A stretch of DNA of 64,000 bases from the NCBI RefSeq assembly GCF_019375475.1, contig NZ_JAHXGQ010000011.1:124001-188000 (forward strand), read 5' to 3'. The notes under the pieces are model-generated. The model was not told the DNA's origin. It worked only from the letters and a program-made list of their open reading frames with translations, and did not search any database. The position numbers and the translations under genes were made by a program. Within the stretch, counting starts at the first letter, position 1. Every line of letters begins with the position of its first letter. The stretch comes from Saccharothrix obliqua (GTDB lineage Bacteria > Actinomycetota > Actinomycetes > Mycobacteriales > Pseudonocardiaceae). Positions 20,584 to 29,227 of this stretch are shown one piece after another.

Positions 20584-21678
20584 TCAGCCGGTCGGCGCCA
20601 GCTTCACCGCCTCTTCCAGCAACGCCTCCACGATCCGCGACTCGGGCACCGTGCGCACCACCTCGCCGCGCACGAAGATCTGCCCCTTGCCGTTGCCCGA
20701 GGACACGCCCAGGTCCGCCTCGCGCGCCTCGCCCGGACCGTTCACCACGCACCCCATCACGGCCACCCGCAACGGCGCCGGGAAGTCCTCGAAGGCCGCC
20801 GTCACGCGCTCGGTCAGCCGGTACACGTCCACCTGCGCCCGACCGCACGACGGGCACGACACGATCTCCAGCTTCCGGGGCCGCAACCCCAGCGACGCCA
20901 GGATCTGCGCGCCCACCTTCACCTCCTCCACCGGCGGCGCGGACAACGACACCCGGATCGTGTCGCCGATGCCCTCCGCCAGCAGCAGCCCGAACGCCAC
21001 CGCCGACTTCACCGTGCCCTGCACCAGCGGGCCGGCCTCGGTGACGCCCAGGTGCAGCGGGTAGTCGCAGGACCGGGCGAGCTGCCGGTACGCGGCCACC
21101 GCCACCATCGGGTCGTGGTGCTTCACCGAGACCTTCAGGTCGGTGAAACCGTGCTCCTCGAACAGCGAGCACTCCCACAGCGCCGACTCCACCAGCGCCT
21201 CCGGCGTGGCCGTGCCGTACTTGCGGTAGAGGCGCTGGTCCAGCGAGCCCGCGTTGACGCCGATCCGGATCGGCACGCCCGCGTCGCCCGCCGCCCGCGC
21301 GATCTCCCGCACCCGGTCGTCGAAACGCCGGATGTTGCCGGGGTTCACCCGCACGGCCGCGCAGCCCGCGTCGATCGCCGCGAACACGTACCGCGGCTGG
21401 AAGTGGATGTCCGCCACCACCGGGATCGGCGACTTGCGCGCGATCGCGGGCAGCGCGTCCGCGTCGTCCTGCGACGGCACCGCGACCCGCACGATCTCGC
21501 ACCCGGCTGCGGTCAGCTCGGCGATCTGCCGCAACGTCGCCTCGACGTCCGCGGTCGGCGTGGTGGTCATGGACTGCACGGTGACCGGCGCGCCGCCGCC
21601 CACCTCGACTCCGCCCACGGACAGCTTGCGGGACACCCGCCGCCGCGGTGCGGGCGGGTGCAGTTGCAGTGCGGTCAA
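20584..21678 (-). CDS. ispG: 4-hydroxy-3-methylbut-2-en-1-yl diphosphate synthase
   Basis: A 364-residue IspG. The N-terminal [22 protein letters not shown], the VADIHF block, KVSVKHHD and the [4Fe-4S] ligands in SCPSCGR and [10 protein letters not shown] are all present. It makes HMBPP from MEcPP in the MEP pathway. The start is a TTG (21676-21678) whose last bases overlap the dxs stop (TTGA), and an N-terminal APRRR block in the expected place supports it. Third gene of the ispH-dxs-ispG unit. Confidence 0.92.
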
Positions 21679-23402
21679 CTGTGCTCCTTGAGTCGCTTGA
21701 GGACGGTGGTGACGATGCCCGCCGAGTCCAACCCGTGCGCCCGCAGCACCTCCGCGCGGGAGCCGTGCGGCAGGAAGTTCGTGGGCAGCGCGAACGTGCC
21801 CACCCTGGTCGGCGCGCCGACCACCGCGAGCGCCTGCGCGAGCCGCCCGCCGAGCGCGCCGGTGGTCGCGGTGTCCTCCACCGCCAGCACCAGCCGGTGC
21901 GCGCCCGCCAGCTTCACCAGGGCCGGGTCCAGCGGCGCGATCCAGCGCGGGTCCACCACGTCCACCGGCACGCCCTGCGCGGCCAGCTCGTCGGCGGCGT
22001 CCAGGCACGCCCGCGCCATCGGCCCGACGGCGACCAGGAGGCCCACCGCGTCCGGCGCCGCGCGCAGCACGTCGCACCGCCCGACCCGGCGCACCGCCGG
22101 GACGTCCGCGCCCGCCGCCGACTTCGGGTAGCGCACGGCGGTCGGCCCGTCGGCGACCGCCACCGCCTCCCGCAGCAGCTCCCGCAACCGCGCCGGGTCG
22201 CGGGGCGCGGCCAGCCGCAGCCCCGGCACCACCGGCAGCACCGACGCGTCCCACATGCCGTGGTGGCTCGGCCCGTCCGGACCGGTCACGCCGGCCCGGT
22301 CCAGCACGAACGTCACCGGCAGCCGGTGCAGCGCCACGTCCAGCAGCACCTGGTCGAACGCCCGGCCCAGGAACGTCGAGTACACCGCGACCACCGGGTG
22401 CAGCCCGGCCAGCGCGAGCCCCGCCGCCGACGTCACCGCGTGCTGCTCGGCGATGCCCACGTCGAACACCCGGTCCGGGAAGCGCGTGGCGAACGCGTCC
22501 AGCCCCGTCGGGCCGCGCATCGCGGCCGTCACGCACACCACGTCCGAGTGTTCCGCGCCGATCTCGGCGATCTCCGCGCCGAACACGTCGGTCCACGTGC
22601 GACCGCCGTTGGCGCCGGCGGCGGACACCGCGTGCAGGCGGTCCGCCTCGTCCTGCTCGGCAGGCGGGTGCCCCTTGCCCTTGGTGGTCACGCAGTGCAC
22701 GACGACCGGGCGGCCCAGTGCCGCCGCGGTGCGCAGCGCGTCCTCCAGCCCGGCGGTGTCGTGCCCGTCCACCGGGCCCACGTAGGCCAGGCCCAGCGCC
22801 TCGAACAACGTGGCGCGCCCGCCCGACCGGAGCGCGGCCAGGTGCGCCGCCAGCCCGCCCGTCGTCGGCGCGTAGGAGCGGCCGTTGTCGTTGAGCACCA
22901 CCACGACCGGACCGCTGCGGGCGAGGTTGTTCAACGCCTCCCACGCCATGCCGCCGGTGAGCGCGCCGTCACCGACCACCGCCACCACCCGCCGAGCGGA
23001 ACCCTTGAGCCGCAGGGCTTTGGCGATGCCGTCCGCGTAGGACAACGCGGTCGAGGCGTGCGAGTTCTCGATCACGTCGTGCGGCGACTCGGCCGCCGAC
23101 GGGTAGCCGGACAGCCCGCCCGCGCGGCGCAGCGCCGCGAAGTCCGCGGCCCGCCCGGTGAGCACCTTGTGCACGTACGCCTGGTGCCCGGTGTCCCACA
23201 GCAGCACGTCGTGCGGCGAGTCGAACACCCGGTGCAGGGCGATGGTCAGCTCCACCACGCCCAGGTTCGGCCCCAGGTGGCCGCCCGCCCGGGTCACCCG
23301 CTCCACGAGGAACCGCCGGATCTCGTCGGCCAGCGCGGGCAGCGCCGCCGGTGGCAGCGCGCGGACGTCCGCCGGGCTCGAGATGTCGTCCAGGAGCGTC
23401 AT
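21675..23402 (-). CDS. dxs: 1-deoxy-D-xylulose-5-phosphate synthase
   Basis: A 575-residue thiamine-diphosphate enzyme: [32 protein letters not shown], the TPP/Mg motif [23 protein letters not shown] and [13 protein letters not shown]. It is shorter than the typical 620-640, which is common for accessory copies in terpenoid clusters (inference). ATG at 23402 overlaps the ispH stop (ATGA). It commits pyruvate and glyceraldehyde-3-phosphate to the MEP pathway. Confidence 0.92.
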
Positions 23403-24325
23403 CGCGGCCTCACCGCGGCGGGGAGCGTGAAGGTGATCGTCTCCCGCGTGGTCTCGCGCACCCGCACGTCCTGCGCGCCCAGGGCCGTCACCACCTCGTC
23501 CACCAGGCGTGGCGGCGCGGACGCGCCCGCGGTCAGGCCCACCACCCGTGCGCCGACCAGCCACTCCGGCCGGATGTCCGCCGCGTCCTCGACCAGGTGC
23601 GCGGGCGTGCCCTGGCGGCGGGCCAGCTCGACCAGCCGCACGGAGTTCGACGAGTTCGCCGAACCGACCACCAGCACCACGTCGGCGTCCCGCGCCACCT
23701 CCCGCACCGCGTCCTGCCGGTTGGTGGTGGCGTAGCAGATGTCGGCCGCCGCGGGGCCGCGCAGCAGCGGGAACCGGGCCCGCAGCGCGGCCACCAGCTC
23801 GGCCGTCTCGTCGGCGGCCAGGGTCGTCTGGGTCAGGTAGGACACGCGGGTCGGGTCGGGCACCTCCAGCCGCGCCACGTCGGCCACCGTTTCCACCAGC
23901 AGCATCCGGTCGGGCGCCTCGCCCAGCGTGCCGTCCACCTCCTCGTGGCCGGCGTGCCCGATCAGCACCACCGTGTCACCCCGCGCGACGAACCTCCGTG
24001 CCTCCGCGTGCACCTTCGTCACCAGGGGGCAGGTGGCGTCCACGACGTCCAGCCCGCGCCGCGCGGCTTCGGCGCGCACCGCGGGCGAGACGCCGTGCGC
24101 GGAGAACACCACGGTCGCGCCGTCGGGCACGGCGTCCAACTCGTCGACGAACACCGCGCCGCGCGCCTCCAGGTCGGCCACCACGTGGGTGTTGTGCACG
24201 ATCTGCTTGCGCACGTGGATCGGCCCGCCGCGCTGTGCGAGCAGCTTCTCCACGATCTCCACGGCCCGCTCGACCCCGGCGCAGAACGACCGGGGCGAAG
24301 CGAGCAGCACAACGGGAAGGGCCAT
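23399..24325 (-). CDS. ispH: 4-hydroxy-3-methylbut-2-enyl diphosphate reductase
   Basis: A 308-residue IspH/LytB with the three iron-sulfur cysteines in [19 protein letters not shown] and [12 protein letters not shown], and the NSSNSVRL substrate motif. It makes IPP and DMAPP from HMBPP. A clear AGGAG lies about 8 nt before its ATG, and 712 bp of repeat-rich sequence precede it, so this three-gene unit probably has its own promoter or reads through from the prenyl synthase. Confidence 0.93.
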
Positions 24326-24464
24326 GCCGGTCTCCTGTCAGTCGGTGCCCGCCCCTCGTGCCGCCGGGTGGCCGTCTCGGGTGGGCTGGTCGGGCCGGCC
24401 GGTCGGATGAGCACCGCGGCCGGGTGGCGGACCCGGGGTCGAGCGGTAGGTGTTGCTTCGGGTT

Positions 24465-24896
24465 GGGAAAGCGCATTCCCGGCCGGACTTGGTTCTCGCG
24501 CGAGGGCGGGAAAGCGCTTTCCCAGCCCGCGGGTGGCGGGTGGCGGGTGCTGAGTGGCGAGCGGCGGCGGGCGGTGGCGGGCGGTGGCGGGCGGTGGCGG
24601 GTGGCGGCGGGTGGCGGCGGGTGGCGGCGGGTGGTGGGCGTCGGCGGGATGGCGGGTGGCGGCGGGTGGTGGGCGATGGCAGGCGGTGGCGGGTGCTGAG
24701 TGGCGGGTGGCGGGCGTCGGCGAGTGGCGGCGAGTGGCGGGCGGTGGCGGGTGGCGGTGGGTGGCGGCGGGAGGCGAGTGTGGGGAGGGGGCGGCGCGGA
24801 AAGCGCTTTCCGCGAGGTGCGGCGCGCGGTCCGCCGGGTCGGAAAGCGCTTTCCAGCGGTCCGAGGGTCTGGCGAGTTCCCCGGAAAACGCTTTCC
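24465..24896. repeat. Five GGAAAGCGCTTTCC palindromes, 42-43 bp apart in two groups
   Basis: Copies start at 24465 (one mismatch), 24508 (perfect 16 bp), 24795 (perfect 20 bp, CGCGGAAAGCGCTTTCCGCG), 24841 (14 bp) and 24883 (one mismatch). Core-to-core distances are 43 bp within the first group and 43 and 42 bp within the second, about four helical turns. They flank a G-rich minisatellite and lie upstream of ispH. They may be operators bound on the same DNA face, or duplicated hairpins. Confidence 0.75.
24530..24790. repeat. G-rich minisatellite
   Basis: About 260 bp of imperfect GGCGGGTG / GGCGGGCGGT units in tandem on the plus strand, with interspersed TGCTGAGTGGCG copies. It is strongly strand-asymmetric, with many GGG runs. 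It lies between the two palindrome groups in the gap between ispH and the prenyl synthase gene and has no supported coding frame. Confidence 0.75.
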
Positions 24897-25037
24897 GCGC
24901 CGGGTTCGGACCGTGCGCGGCGGGGGTTGCTGGTGGATCGGGCTGCCCTGAAGGCGGGTGTCGAGCCGGGGCCGGCGTGCGAGGGGAGTTCCGGGAGCGG
25001 ATGAGCCGGTGGGGTGGCCGGCGGTGGGGGCCGGGCT

Positions 25038-26078
25038 TCAGTGGTCGCGGTTGGTGGCGAGTTCGGCCAGGACGCGCAGTTCGTGTTCCGCCCGTACCGG
25101 GGGGTCGGTCGCGCGGAGGTGCACCAAAGCCTGTGCCAGCAGGTCGTCGGCGCGGCCGGCGCTCCACGCCCGCGCGCCCGCCGCCTCGATCAGCTCGGCC
25201 GCGTGCGCCACGTCCGCACCGGAGAGCGTGCCCTCGGTGTGGTAGAGCGCGTGCAGCTCCCGCGCCGCCGCGGTGTCGGAGGTCAGGGCCGCCACCACGG
25301 GCAGCGACTTCTTCCGGTTCTGGAGGTCCGAGTACGCCGGTTTGCCGGTCAGCCCCGGGTCGCCCCAGATGCCCAGCAGGTCGTCGGTGAACTGGAACGC
25401 CAACCCGATGCGCTCGCCGAACAGCCGCAACTGGTCGACCTGGTCGGCCCGTCCGCCGCCGAACAGGGCGCCCAGCGCGCACGACGCCCCGATCAGGCCC
25501 GCGGTCTTGTTCTCGGCCATCCGCACGCACTCGTCCAGCCGCACGTCGCCGCGCTCCTCGAACGACAGGTCCGCCGCCTGCCCGTCGTGCAACCGCTGCG
25601 TCGCCTCGGACAGCACGCGGATCGCCGTCGCCGCCGCCGGGTGCCCGCTGCCGGCGAGCTGGTCCAGCGCCAGGGTGAGCAACGCGTCGCCCGCGAGGAT
25701 CGCCGCGTTCACGCCGAACACGCTCCACGCGGTCGGCCGGTGCCGGCGCGTCGCGTCGCCGTCCATCACGTCGTCGTGCAGCAGCGAGAAGTTGTGCACC
25801 AGCTCGACCGCGACGGCGGCGGGCACGGCGGTCGCCGCTGCGCCGCCCACCGCTCGCGCGGCCAGCAGCACCAGGGCCGGCCGGATGGCCTTGCCGGGGT
25901 CGGCGCCGGTCGGGTGGCCGTGCTCGTCCCACCACCCGAAGTGGTAGCCCGCGATGGTGCGCATCGAGTCCGGCAGCCGGTCCACGGCGTTGCGCAGAGC
26001 CGGGTCCACGCCCGTGCGGCTCCAGCTCAGCACCTCGCGCGCGGACCGGTGCGCGGGTGTGACGTCGAGGTCGGTCAT
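25038..26078 (-). CDS. Encapsulin-associated polyprenyl diphosphate synthase
   Basis: A 346-residue trans-prenyltransferase. ELVHNFSLLHDDVMDGDATRRHRP carries the first Asp-rich motif (DDVMD) with Phe five residues before it, consistent with a short C15-C20 product. The second motif is QFTDDLLGIWGD, followed by GKPAYSDLQNRKKSLPVV. It condenses IPP with allylic diphosphates. ATG at 26078 has AGGAG 7 nt upstream; an in-frame GTG at 26180 would add 34 Pro/Arg/Gly-rich residues but has no ribosome site. It lies 112 bp after the encapsulin gene and is the likely cargo enzyme. Confidence 0.88.
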   Translation of the reverse strand: MTDLDVTPAHRSAREVLSWSRTGVDPALRNAVDRLPDSMRTIAGYHFGWWDEHGHPTGADPGKAIRPALVLLAARAVGGAAATAVPAAVAVELVHNFSLLHDDVMDGDATRRHRPTAWSVFGVNAAILAGDALLTLALDQLAGSGHPAAATAIRVLSEATQRLHDGQAADLSFEERGDVRLDECVRMAENKTAGLIGASCALGALFGGGRADQVDQLRLFGERIGLAFQFTDDLLGIWGDPGLTGKPAYSDLQNRKKSLPVVAALTSDTAAARELHALYHTEGTLSGADVAHAAELIEAAGARAWSAGRADDLLAQALVHLRATDPPVRAEHELRVLAELATNRDH

Positions 26079-26190
26079 GGGCTGACTCCTGGGTCGGGGG
26101 GAGCGCCCGGCGGGCCCTGGCGGGCCGCGTGGCGCGCGGGAGTGTGCGGGCGGCCGGGGTCCGACCCGGCCGCCGCGCACCGGTGGACCG

Positions 26191-27603
26191 CTAGTAGCGG
26201 CCGATCTCCACGTGCTCCAGCACGCCGAGGGCGTCGGGCACGAGGACCGCCACCGAGTAGTAGGCGCTCACCAGGTACGAGATGATCGCCTTCTCGTCGA
26301 TGCCCATGAACCGGACGTTCAGGCCCGGCTGGTACTCGTCCGGGATGCCGGTCTGGTGCAACCCGACCACGCCGTTGTCCTGCTCGCCGATGCGCATCGC
26401 GATGATCGAGCTGGTGCCCTGGTCGCTGATCGGGATCTTGTTCGACGGCAGCAGCGGCACGCCGCGCCAGGTGATGACGCGCGTGCCGTCCACGTCGGCC
26501 GTGCCCGGGTAGACGCCGCGCCGCGACGCCTCCCGCCCGAACGCGGCGATCGCCCTCGGGTGCGCCAGCATGAACGCCGTCTTGCGGCGCCTGCTGAGCA
26601 GGTCGTCCAGGTCGTCCGGGGTGGGTGGCCCGGACCGGGTGTGGATGCGCTGCTTGAGGTCGGCGTTGTGCAGCAGCCCGATCTCGCGGTTGTTGATCAT
26701 CTCGTGCTCCTGCCGCTCGCGCAGGGCCTCGACGGTCAACCGGAGCTGCTGCTCGGTCTGGTTCATCGGGTGGTTGTAGAGGTCGGCGACGCGCGAGTGC
26801 ACCCGCAGCACGGTCTGGGCCACGTGCAGCTCGTACTCGCGGGGCGCGAGTTCGTAGTCCACGAACGTGGTCGGCAGGTCCGGTTCGCCCGCGTGGCCGG
26901 AGGCGATCTCGATCGCCGCCTCGCCGTGCTTGTTCTGCGGCTTGTCGTGCCGCCGCGCCAGCTCGGCGACGTGCTCGCGCAGCGCCTCGGCCTGCGCGTC
27001 GAGCTGGTCCACCGACCGCCGCGGCAGCACCAGGAGGATCACGGGGGTGACCGCCTTGACGGTGTAGTCCCACGTGGTCTCCTCGCCGGCGAGCACCGCG
27101 CCGCCGAAGTGGTCGCCGTTGGCGAGGGTGTCCAGCACGGTCTCGTCGCCGTACTCGCCGCGGCCGACGCGGTTGACCTTGCCGTGCGCGACGAGGAAGA
27201 CCTCGTCGGCCGGGCGGTCCTTCTCGACCACCACGTCACCGGGTGCGTACTCGCGCTGCTCGAACCGGTCCGCCAGCGCGGCCAGGACGTCGTCGTCCGG
27301 GAAGTCGCGCAGAGCGGGCAGCTCGCGCAGCTCCTGGGGGATGACGCGGATGTCCGCCCCGGTGCCGGTGAACGTCACCCGCCCGTCGCCCACCGCGTAG
27401 GTGAGCCGGCGGTTGACCCGGTAGGTGCCCGCCTGGGTCTGCACCCAGGGGAGCTTGCGCAGCAGCCACCGGGGGGTGATGGCCTGCATGTGCGGCACGG
27501 ACTTGGTCGTGGTGGCCAGGTTGCGCGCGCCCGCGGTGCTCAGGCTCTGCCGCTGGTGCTCGGCCTCGTCTTCCGCGATGGGGCCGGGGTCCGTCACGGT
27601 CAC
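26191..27603 (-). CDS. Family 2B encapsulin shell protein 1 (EshA-like)
   Basis: A 470-residue protein with a cyclic-nucleotide-binding-like domain (about 95-205: [30 protein letters not shown]) inserted in an HK97-type capsid fold. The N-terminal arm has [15 protein letters not shown]. The C-terminal half has [44 protein letters not shown], the [11 protein letters not shown] segment and [23 protein letters not shown]. This matches Family 2B encapsulins such as Streptomyces EshA, which form compartments around enzymes. It is easily misread as a Crp regulator. GTG start with AGGGA 7 nt upstream; 27 bp after shell protein 2. Confidence 0.9.
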
Positions 27604-27630: not shown

Positions 27631-29037
27631 CTAGTCTTCGCGGCCGATCTCCACGTGTTCGAGCACGCCGAGGGCGTCGGGCACGAGGATCGCGGCCGAG
27701 TAGTACGCGCTGACGAGGTAGGAGATGATCGCCTTGTCGTCGATGCCCATGAACCGCACGCTCAGGCCGGGCTGGTACTCGTCGGGCAGGCCGGTCTGGT
27801 GCAGGCCGATGACGCCCTGGTTCTGCTCGCCGGCGCGGAGCAGCATGATCGAGCTGGTGCGGGTCGGGCTGATCTCGATCTTGCCGCAGGGCAGGATCGG
27901 CACGCCGCGCCACGCGGGCACCTGGTGGCCGCCGAGGTCCACGCTCGACGGGTACAGGCCGCGCTTGTTGAACTCGCGCCCGATCGCGGCGATGACGCGC
28001 GGGTGGGCGAGGAACGCGGTCGGCTCCTTCCACACCACGCCGAGCAGCTCGTCCAGGTCGTCCGGGGTGGGCGGGCCGGACCGGGTGTGGATGCGGTGCT
28101 TGAGGTCGGCGTTGTGCAGCAGGCCGAACTCGCGGTTGTTCACCAGCTCGTACTCCTGGCGCTCGCGCAGCGCCTCGATGGTCAGCCGGAGCTGCTGCTC
28201 CACCTGGTTCATCGGCTGGTTGTAGAGGTCCGCGACGCGGGAGTGCACCTTCAGCACGGTCTGCGCGACGCTCAGCTCGAACTCGCGCGGCGCGAGTTCG
28301 TAGTCCACGAAGGTGCCGGGCAGGTCCGGCTCGCCCGCGTGGCCGGAGGCGATGTCGATCTCGGCCTCGCCGTGCGCGTTCTGCCGCTGCTCGCCGCCCG
28401 CGTGCTGCCGCTGGACGTGGGCGCGCAGGCCGCCCGCGTTGCCGTTGAGGGCCTCGAAGTCCGACCAGCTCAACACCAGCGCGATCACCGGGGTGACGGC
28501 CTTGGCGGTGAAGTCCCACTCGTCCTGCGGCCCGGCCAGCACCCGGTCGCCGAAGTAGTCGCCGTTGGCCAGCACGCCGAGCACGGTCTGGTCGCCGTAC
28601 TCGCCGCGGCCGACCTTGTTCACCTTGCCGTGCGCGATCAGGTAGACCTCGTCCTGCGGCCGACCCGCCTCGACGATCACGTCGCCCACGCCGTACTCGC
28701 GCTGCTCGAACCGGCCCGCGAGGGCGGTCAGCACCTCGACGTCCTCGAAACCACGCAGCAGGGGCAGCTCGGTCAGCTCCTGCGGGATCACCTGGACGTC
28801 CGCACCGGTGTTGGTGAAGGTGAGCCGCCCGTCGCCGAGCGCGTAGCTGAGCCGGCGGTTGACCCGGTACGCGCCGCCCGCGGCCTGCACCCAGGGGAGG
28901 ACCTTGAGCAGCCACCGCGACGAGATGCCCTGCATCTGCGGGACGGACTTGGTCGTGGTGGCCAGGTTGCGCGCCGCGGCTGTGGCGAGGCTGCGCCTGG
29001 GCTGGTCGGTCTCCACGTCCGAATCGGTCACAGTCAC
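27631..29037 (-). CDS. Family 2B encapsulin shell protein 2 (EshA-like)
   Basis: A 468-residue paralogue of the next gene, alike along its whole length by eye ([125 protein letters not shown]). The nucleotide-binding-like insert again lies near 90-205. Tandem non-identical shell genes suggest a mixed, two-component shell. The start is uncertain: GTG at 29037 aligns with the N-terminus of shell protein 1, but TTG at 29052 and GTG at 29046 are in frame and no strong ribosome site precedes any of them. First gene of the block. Confidence 0.88.
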
Positions 29038-29227
29038 CGGATACACCGCCAATCGGGTTTGTTCACTGGGCCGCGTTGACGGTAGTGACGCCGAATGCGC
29101 GGCGGGAAGCGGCCAACACGGCGACCTCCCATAGAGCTATCCGGCAGGTATTCGTGCACACGCCGTGCAGGTGGTGACCGGTGCAAGCAATTACGGGTGA
29201 TTTTAGTCGGCGTTAGGGGGTATATTC

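Follow-up and report, generated by a model that had tools for sequence, protein, structure and literature searches.

Five sites of the type GGAAAGCGCTTTCC, a 14-bp palindrome, lie at 24466-24896 of the window (the whole stretch of 64,000 nucleotides that was analysed, G000:C3:124001-188000 of an 8.04-Mb genome), between the genes of an encapsulin locus and the MEP genes ispH, dxs and ispG. The most fitting interpretation of this palindrome is an operator for a CcpA-like repressor of the LacI family. This reading, and with it the likeness to LacI-family operators that the original prediction had noticed, is well supported by the position of the site beside a repressor/MocA gene pair, by its co-occurrence with the repressor gene and by its CcpA-like sequence. 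We lean towards the view that the five sites form a repressor-operator array that would hinder transcription into ispH-dxs-ispG, and control of precursor supply by such an array is plausible. Among the relatives examined, the array before ispH is present only in the source genome.

Gene order around the array

The genes concerned all run on the minus strand. Two encapsulin 2B genes come first, followed by that for the cargo polyprenyl transferase, then the array and finally ispH, dxs and ispG. The shell protein encoded nearest to the transferase (26191-27603) carries a cNMP-binding domain (NF041163; PF19307 and PF00027), and the second family 2B shell (27631-29052; NF041163) has relatives in all 25 genomes of the genus sample, the source genome included. 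The family 2 encapsulin cargo polyprenyl transferase (25038-26180) matches NF041169 (E 1.9e-146) and PF00348, and its gene ends about 140 bp from the array. Both shells score above the cut-off of NF041163 and the transferase above that of NF041169, which identifies a family 2B encapsulin locus; the two cNMP-domain shell genes and the cargo prenyl transferase model are shared with known family 2B operons. According to the part of an encapsulin survey available to us (PMC8346489), operons with a polyprenyl transferase often encode terpenoid-precursor genes as well. The same part of that text mentions neither LacI-type operators nor regulation of the precursor genes, whereas such an array is found here, within the genus in the source genome only.

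The first gene downstream of the array is ispH (LytB; 23399-24325), with a match to PF02401 at E 1.3e-93 and scores above cut-off for NF002188 and TIGR00216. The ORF that holds dxs (21675-23564) matches TIGR00204 (E 8.6e-159) and NF003933 (E 2.9e-150); the latter match spans residues 54-624, which probably puts the true start close to 23405. The enzyme IspG forms the C-terminal part (residues 433-780, to about 21648) of an ORF at 20584-22944 (NF001540, E 1e-155). From the start of ispH the sites lie 140-571 bp upstream, in agreement with the original placement of the palindromes between the shell/synthase genes and the MEP trio.

The gap between the prenyl transferase gene and ispH measures 712 bp in the source genome, compared to 12-686 bp in the 21 other congeners in which the neighbourhood is preserved. 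In seven of these 21 it is at most 46 bp, and judged from these gap lengths the encapsulin and MEP genes look like one ancestral operon; the array would therefore lie inside it. In several congeners the gap is rich in low-complexity DNA. In the source genome a GC-rich, degenerate tandem filler of the GGTGGCGGC type (24529-24780, periods 7-27, no strand assigned) separates two groups of palindromes. A scan with E. coli-type consensus sequences detected no promoter or intrinsic terminator in 24320-25060. As a separate observation, four congeners with a long gap (G034, G030, G013 and G032; L058, L061, L062 and L063) have the stretch CGTCGGTTGAAACAACGAGGCC in common, located a short way beyond the stop codon of the prenyl synthase gene; this may be a promoter of ispH or a further operator.

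Sites in the window and in the genome

Mismatches were counted against GGAAAGCGCTTTCC, and the sites are given without strand. Numbered by position, palindrome 1 (24466-24479, GGAAAGCGCATTCC) and palindrome 5 (24883-24896, GGAAAACGCTTTCC) have one mismatch each, whereas palindromes 2 (24509-24522), 3 (24798-24811) and 4 (24841-24854) are perfect. The original count of five copies holds for the sites, but exact copies number only three. Palindromes 1 and 2 are 43 bp apart, 3 and 4 again 43 bp, and 4 and 5 42 bp, so that the predicted spacing of 42-43 bp within two groups was recovered by measurement; 289 bp separate palindromes 2 and 3. With at most one mismatch the window has five sites, compared to none in 200 order-2 Markov resamplings of it, and with at most three mismatches there are nine matches versus 1.86 expected (maximum over 100 shuffles, seven).

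A search of the entire genome (49 contigs), as proposed with the original prediction, yielded 20 sites with at most one mismatch versus one for the reversed control pattern. Eleven of these 20 are in two arrays, five in the window and six at C23:299828-300433, where one extra site with two mismatches brings the total to seven. The sites are few, over half of them are clustered and their spacings are non-random, so that the random scatter without a spacing rule that would have refuted the original prediction was not observed.

Pairwise, the five palindromes of the window are 94% identical, whereas their 28-bp flanks are 34-38% identical, at the background level of 35-36%. Similarly, nine of the ten pairs of spacers do not exceed shuffled sequences and the remaining pair does so at p=0.047. 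The palindromes are therefore not recent tandem copies, and an origin of the array by recent tandem duplication could be ruled out since the flanks are unrelated. Selection on the sites fits the likeness of the palindromes against their diverged flanks better than recent copying does, and the sites in the window look real and maintained.

The candidate repressor and its sites in relatives

The source genome has an intact repressor gene at G000:C2:212788-213837 (L018:5789-6841), and a perfect site precedes it by about 130 bp. The protein combines a LacI-type HTH (PF00356, 4e-16) with a periplasmic-binding-protein-like sensor domain (PF13377, 1.4e-30). In the PDB, the HTH is closest to that of lac repressor chains; the best match among them has VA instead of YQ in the recognition helix and is an altered-specificity mutant that mimics GalR. 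Chains of CcpA are also found among the PDB sequence relatives. Although the repressor belongs to the LacI family like CcpA, its score against the CcpA equivalog model TIGR01481 (142.9 bits) is far below the cut-off of 442.35.

Within the genus the repressor is intact in 21 of the 25 genomes, broken or reduced in G009 and G011, and not found in G006 and G036. The recognition-helix stretch AGVSLATASRVLNGSTRQV is identical in all 21 intact repressors, and a perfect site lies within the 1.5-kb flanks at 15 of these 21 loci and is absent at six. The number of exact GGNAAGCGCTTNCC sites per genome has a median of 10 (range 1-26, n=21) where the repressor is intact, compared to 1, 0, 4 and 1 in the four genomes in which it is lost or broken. 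The sites are fewer without an intact repressor (Mann-Whitney, one-sided p=0.002, relatedness ignored). Poor fits to this link are G016 and G035, which have an intact repressor and only one and three exact sites, respectively. When a LacI-type HTH pattern was run over 50 site-bearing loci plus the window, nine of the ten matches were of this repressor type, from Kitasatospora to Acrocarpospora.

A second gene associated with the site encodes a Gfo/Idh/MocA dehydrogenase, present at 23 loci in 19 of the 25 genomes. At the likely start of this gene, or shortly before it, a perfect GGAAAGCGCTTTCC is found in 19 of the 23 loci, a site with two mismatches in three and none in one; often the site lies between the dehydrogenase gene and the repressor gene. 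A close copy of this dehydrogenase was not found in the source genome, nor in G009 (L127) and G011 (L128), the two genomes with broken repressor copies. Paired sites at spacings of 29-59 bp were found at 20 loci when named genomes were scanned. These loci belong to 18 records and are all from actinomycetes, except for an uncultured Acidobacteriia contig (L103); three come from a single K. cheerisanensis record. At least ten of these 20 loci have a Gfo/Idh/MocA gene (NGVTGRMGY type) and seven have one kind of LacI-type gene. Among the papers listed by our literature searches there was none on this site type in actinomycetes.

To sample the regulon, 20 site regions were taken from two congeners (14 from G015, six from G012) and the flanking proteins were scanned in 11. 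Carbohydrate-type families occur at eight of the 11: a solute-binding protein, GH3 with an LPMO, GH30, PcRGLX (rhamnogalacturonan-lyase-like), glycerate kinase and MocA-type dehydrogenases, the last at three of the eight. The remaining three are not clearly sugar-related; their families are a periplasmic binding protein of the Peripla_BP_6 type, an ABC transporter and a protein kinase that carries a cellulose-binding domain. Several congener sites are located inside called ORFs, some of which are probably spurious. The carbohydrate-type families beside the sites suggest, by context, that the repressor is a carbohydrate regulator. In the source genome, a site with one mismatch (L021:4705, G000:C33:725704) precedes the called start of a gene for a short-chain dehydrogenase by 4 bp; this gene is a candidate for a further target.

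Other arrays and helical spacing

The seven sites of the second array of the source genome (L016:7829-8434, G000:C23:299828-300433) are flanked by genes for a berberine-bridge-type FAD oxidase and for a cupin, with spacings of 107, 104, 97, 136, 108 and 40 bp; the array does not follow the 42-43 bp rule. It contains a 104-bp tandem repeat, in the four units of which 13 of the 14 palindrome columns are kept versus 42 of 83 other columns (Fisher p=0.002). A dispersed mobile repeat was rejected as its origin: among the 40 of 204 candidates that were scored there is no other full copy in the genome, the best match being 36 bp at 97%. For the window fragment, the matches elsewhere, among those listed, fall in the low-complexity filler, and four such filler regions contain no palindrome. 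The largest array was found in K. cheerisanensis (L104:3170-3526), where nine sites follow each other in steps of 43-45 bp, except for one step of 33 bp, and the palindromes are 89% identical versus 39% for the flanks. Rather than at a promoter, this array lies in the space where the 3' ends of two genes face each other, one for a KDPG/KHG-type aldolase and the other for a tetrapyrrole methylase. The same organism has a five-site array (L086), and by ORF call both arrays lie between convergent genes. Site pairs at 22-52 bp are rare in the Kitasatospora family (six of 297 genomes).

For the analysis of spacing we used 51 values, mostly from actinomycetes, typed by hand and merged by eye from among the matches listed. 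The underlying searches covered 29-59 and 22-52 bp, and spacings above 59 bp (74, 90, 91, 97-108, 136 and 289) were left out. In this set, spacings of 24-25, 32-36, 40-47 and 54-58 bp occur, whereas those of 26-31, 37-39 and 48-53 bp are missing; the spacings thus tend to be about one turn of the helix apart. A period of 10.6 bp fits best (R=0.69), a value of R reached in none of 2000 uniform draws, in a set where the 24-bp values weigh heavily (13 of 51) and one K. cheerisanensis spacing of 44 bp is probably counted twice. A reduced set of 25 spacings gave R=0.61, which was reached in five of 2000 draws. Helical phasing is supported within both groups of the window and, for this site type in other bacteria, by the period of about 10.6 bp. 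The 42-43 bp of the window correspond to about 4.0-4.1 turns at 10.5 bp and belong to the short side of the four-turn class, some 2-3 bp under the commonest phase. The original prediction had all five sites on one side of the DNA. Within the groups this agrees with the phasing, but the 289 bp between them amount to 27.5 turns at 10.5 bp and 27.0 at 10.7, so that a common face for both groups depends on the helical repeat assumed.

Occurrence of the array in the genus

A close copy of ispH (at least 80% identical) is present in 22 of the 25 genomes, in all 22 with the prenyl transferase gene just upstream. The gap between the two genes is without a site in all 21 other congeners, even with three mismatches allowed. 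Conservation of the operators at ispH across the genus is ruled out by this result, and the check in related strains that accompanied the original prediction turned out negative. Elsewhere in the congener ispH loci only scattered sites occur. Examples are a site with one mismatch in G017 and a site with two in G010, each beyond ispH as seen from the gap, as well as three sites with three mismatches inside ispH. Pairs of degenerate sites at 22-52 bp occur in one of the 25 genomes, namely the source genome. Two encapsulin matches each were found in G006, G008 and G015, the genomes that lack a close copy of the ispH of the window.

A predicted roadblock and its alternatives

In the mechanism that we propose, the five palindromes would be operators of the carbohydrate LacI-family, CcpA-like repressor described above. 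The gap of the source species would have grown to its present length with the five operators kept inside. Repressor dimers would bind, roughly on one helix face within each group, and the bound dimers would hinder transcription into ispH-dxs-ispG, either as roadblocks against transcription that continues from the encapsulin genes or by repression of a local ispH promoter, or both. A sugar-derived inducer may then lift the block. The substrates of Dxs are pyruvate and glyceraldehyde 3-phosphate, which provides a metabolic rationale for a link to sugar.

Control of the MEP precursor supply, as put forward originally, fits the position of the array, but the absence of sites from the gap in all 21 congeners speaks against it. 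Further points against control of ispH are the distance of the sites from its start, which is larger than typical for the LacI family, the lack of a promoter or terminator motif in the scan of the gap with E. coli-type consensus sequences, the arrays between convergent genes in K. cheerisanensis, the misfits G016 and G035, and the three regulon regions that are not clearly sugar-related. It is possible, and we suggest this tentatively, that a sugar-sensing LacI-family repressor was rewired in one species and there gates MEP supply by a phased roadblock array inside an operon, while other actinomycetes have phased arrays of the same site type with as many as nine operators. Should this hold, an isoprenoid operon linked to an encapsulin would gain a candidate repressor and a defined operator, and a connection of its MEP flux with sugar status could be put to the test.

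The two main alternatives are that the array acts as a decoy or that it arose neutrally as the spacer grew. As a decoy, the array would bind the repressor and control no neighbouring gene, and titration would set the threshold for the real regulon. The seven sites on C23, the nine of L104 (about 44 bp apart) and the five of L086 are indeed more than promoter control needs, both arrays of K. cheerisanensis are placed between convergent genes, and two arrays account for over half of the source-genome sites. However, both source-genome arrays are upstream of a gene start (ispH and the cupin gene, respectively) in co-directional gaps, so that bound repressors would act on transcription too, and we consider a pure decoy rather unlikely.

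It also seems improbable that operators or look-alikes simply multiplied along with an expanding low-complexity spacer and have no present function at ispH. Such a history would be in line with the confinement of the array to one genome, with the variation of the gap from 12 to 712 bp over 22 genomes and its low complexity in several of them, and with the tandem repeat of the C23 array. Moreover, DNA like the filler at 24529-24780 gives matches in all 25 genomes. On the other hand, palindromes 1, 4 and 5 are covered by none of the filler matches listed, and four filler regions from elsewhere, three of which cross the place of palindrome 3, have no such site with at most two mismatches. The near-identity of the palindromes amid unrelated spacers likewise speaks against a neutral origin.

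Finally, RNA hairpins acting in processing, stability or attenuation of a read-through transcript, or sites of an unrelated DNA-binding protein, are very improbable: by inspection a 5-bp stem could form from any of the perfect palindromes, and the palindromes do lie between co-directional genes, but by hand count the third-position pair is not Watson-Crick in 12 of the 20 sites of congener G012 (one G-T), which dimer operators tolerate and hairpins should not, and the sites at the MocA genes are linked to a LacI-type gene.

Comparison with known operators

The site type shares several properties with the operators of the LacI family as described in the sections of a family survey at hand (PMC4052901): an even palindrome with central CG, a location by sugar-use genes and a position beside the regulator gene. 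More specifically, GGAAAGCGCTTTCC is an even palindrome with central CG, the site is conserved beside a LacI-family gene (which applies to the site type and not to the array at ispH), and the number of sites drops where the regulator is lost. The site also equals TGAAAGCGCTTTCA, the strong cre consensus of CcpA, barring the first and last base, and its central 12 bases GAAAGCGCTTTC match the strong cre consensus of B. subtilis, as given in the portion of the CcpA study that we used (PMC3463425). There, roadblock repression by CcpA is reported for several operons (PMC3463425).

The differences concern number, spacing and position. In the same sections of the LacI-family survey, tandem sites are given for 1118 operons, with 116 groups of three and five groups of four, whereas five to nine sites per intergenic region are found here (PMC4052901). 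The surveyed inter-site distances peak at 13, 22 and 32 bp, compared to the classes of 24-25, 32-36, 40-47 and 54-58 bp in our set, and more than 75% of the surveyed sites lie 30-140 bp upstream, with about 7% beyond 200 bp (PMC4052901). The array appears to be a known operator type in an unusual multi-site form and place, with a predicted target. Turn-phased multi-site arrays of the LacI type in several actinomycetes exceed the four-site groups in those sections of the survey (PMC4052901), and may therefore serve as natural material for the study of cooperative binding, roadblocks and repressor titration. In addition, steps of exactly 24 bp, a further turn-like class of spacing, were observed between six sites in G051 (L162:1501-1634) and in triplets in K. 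cheerisanensis (G037).
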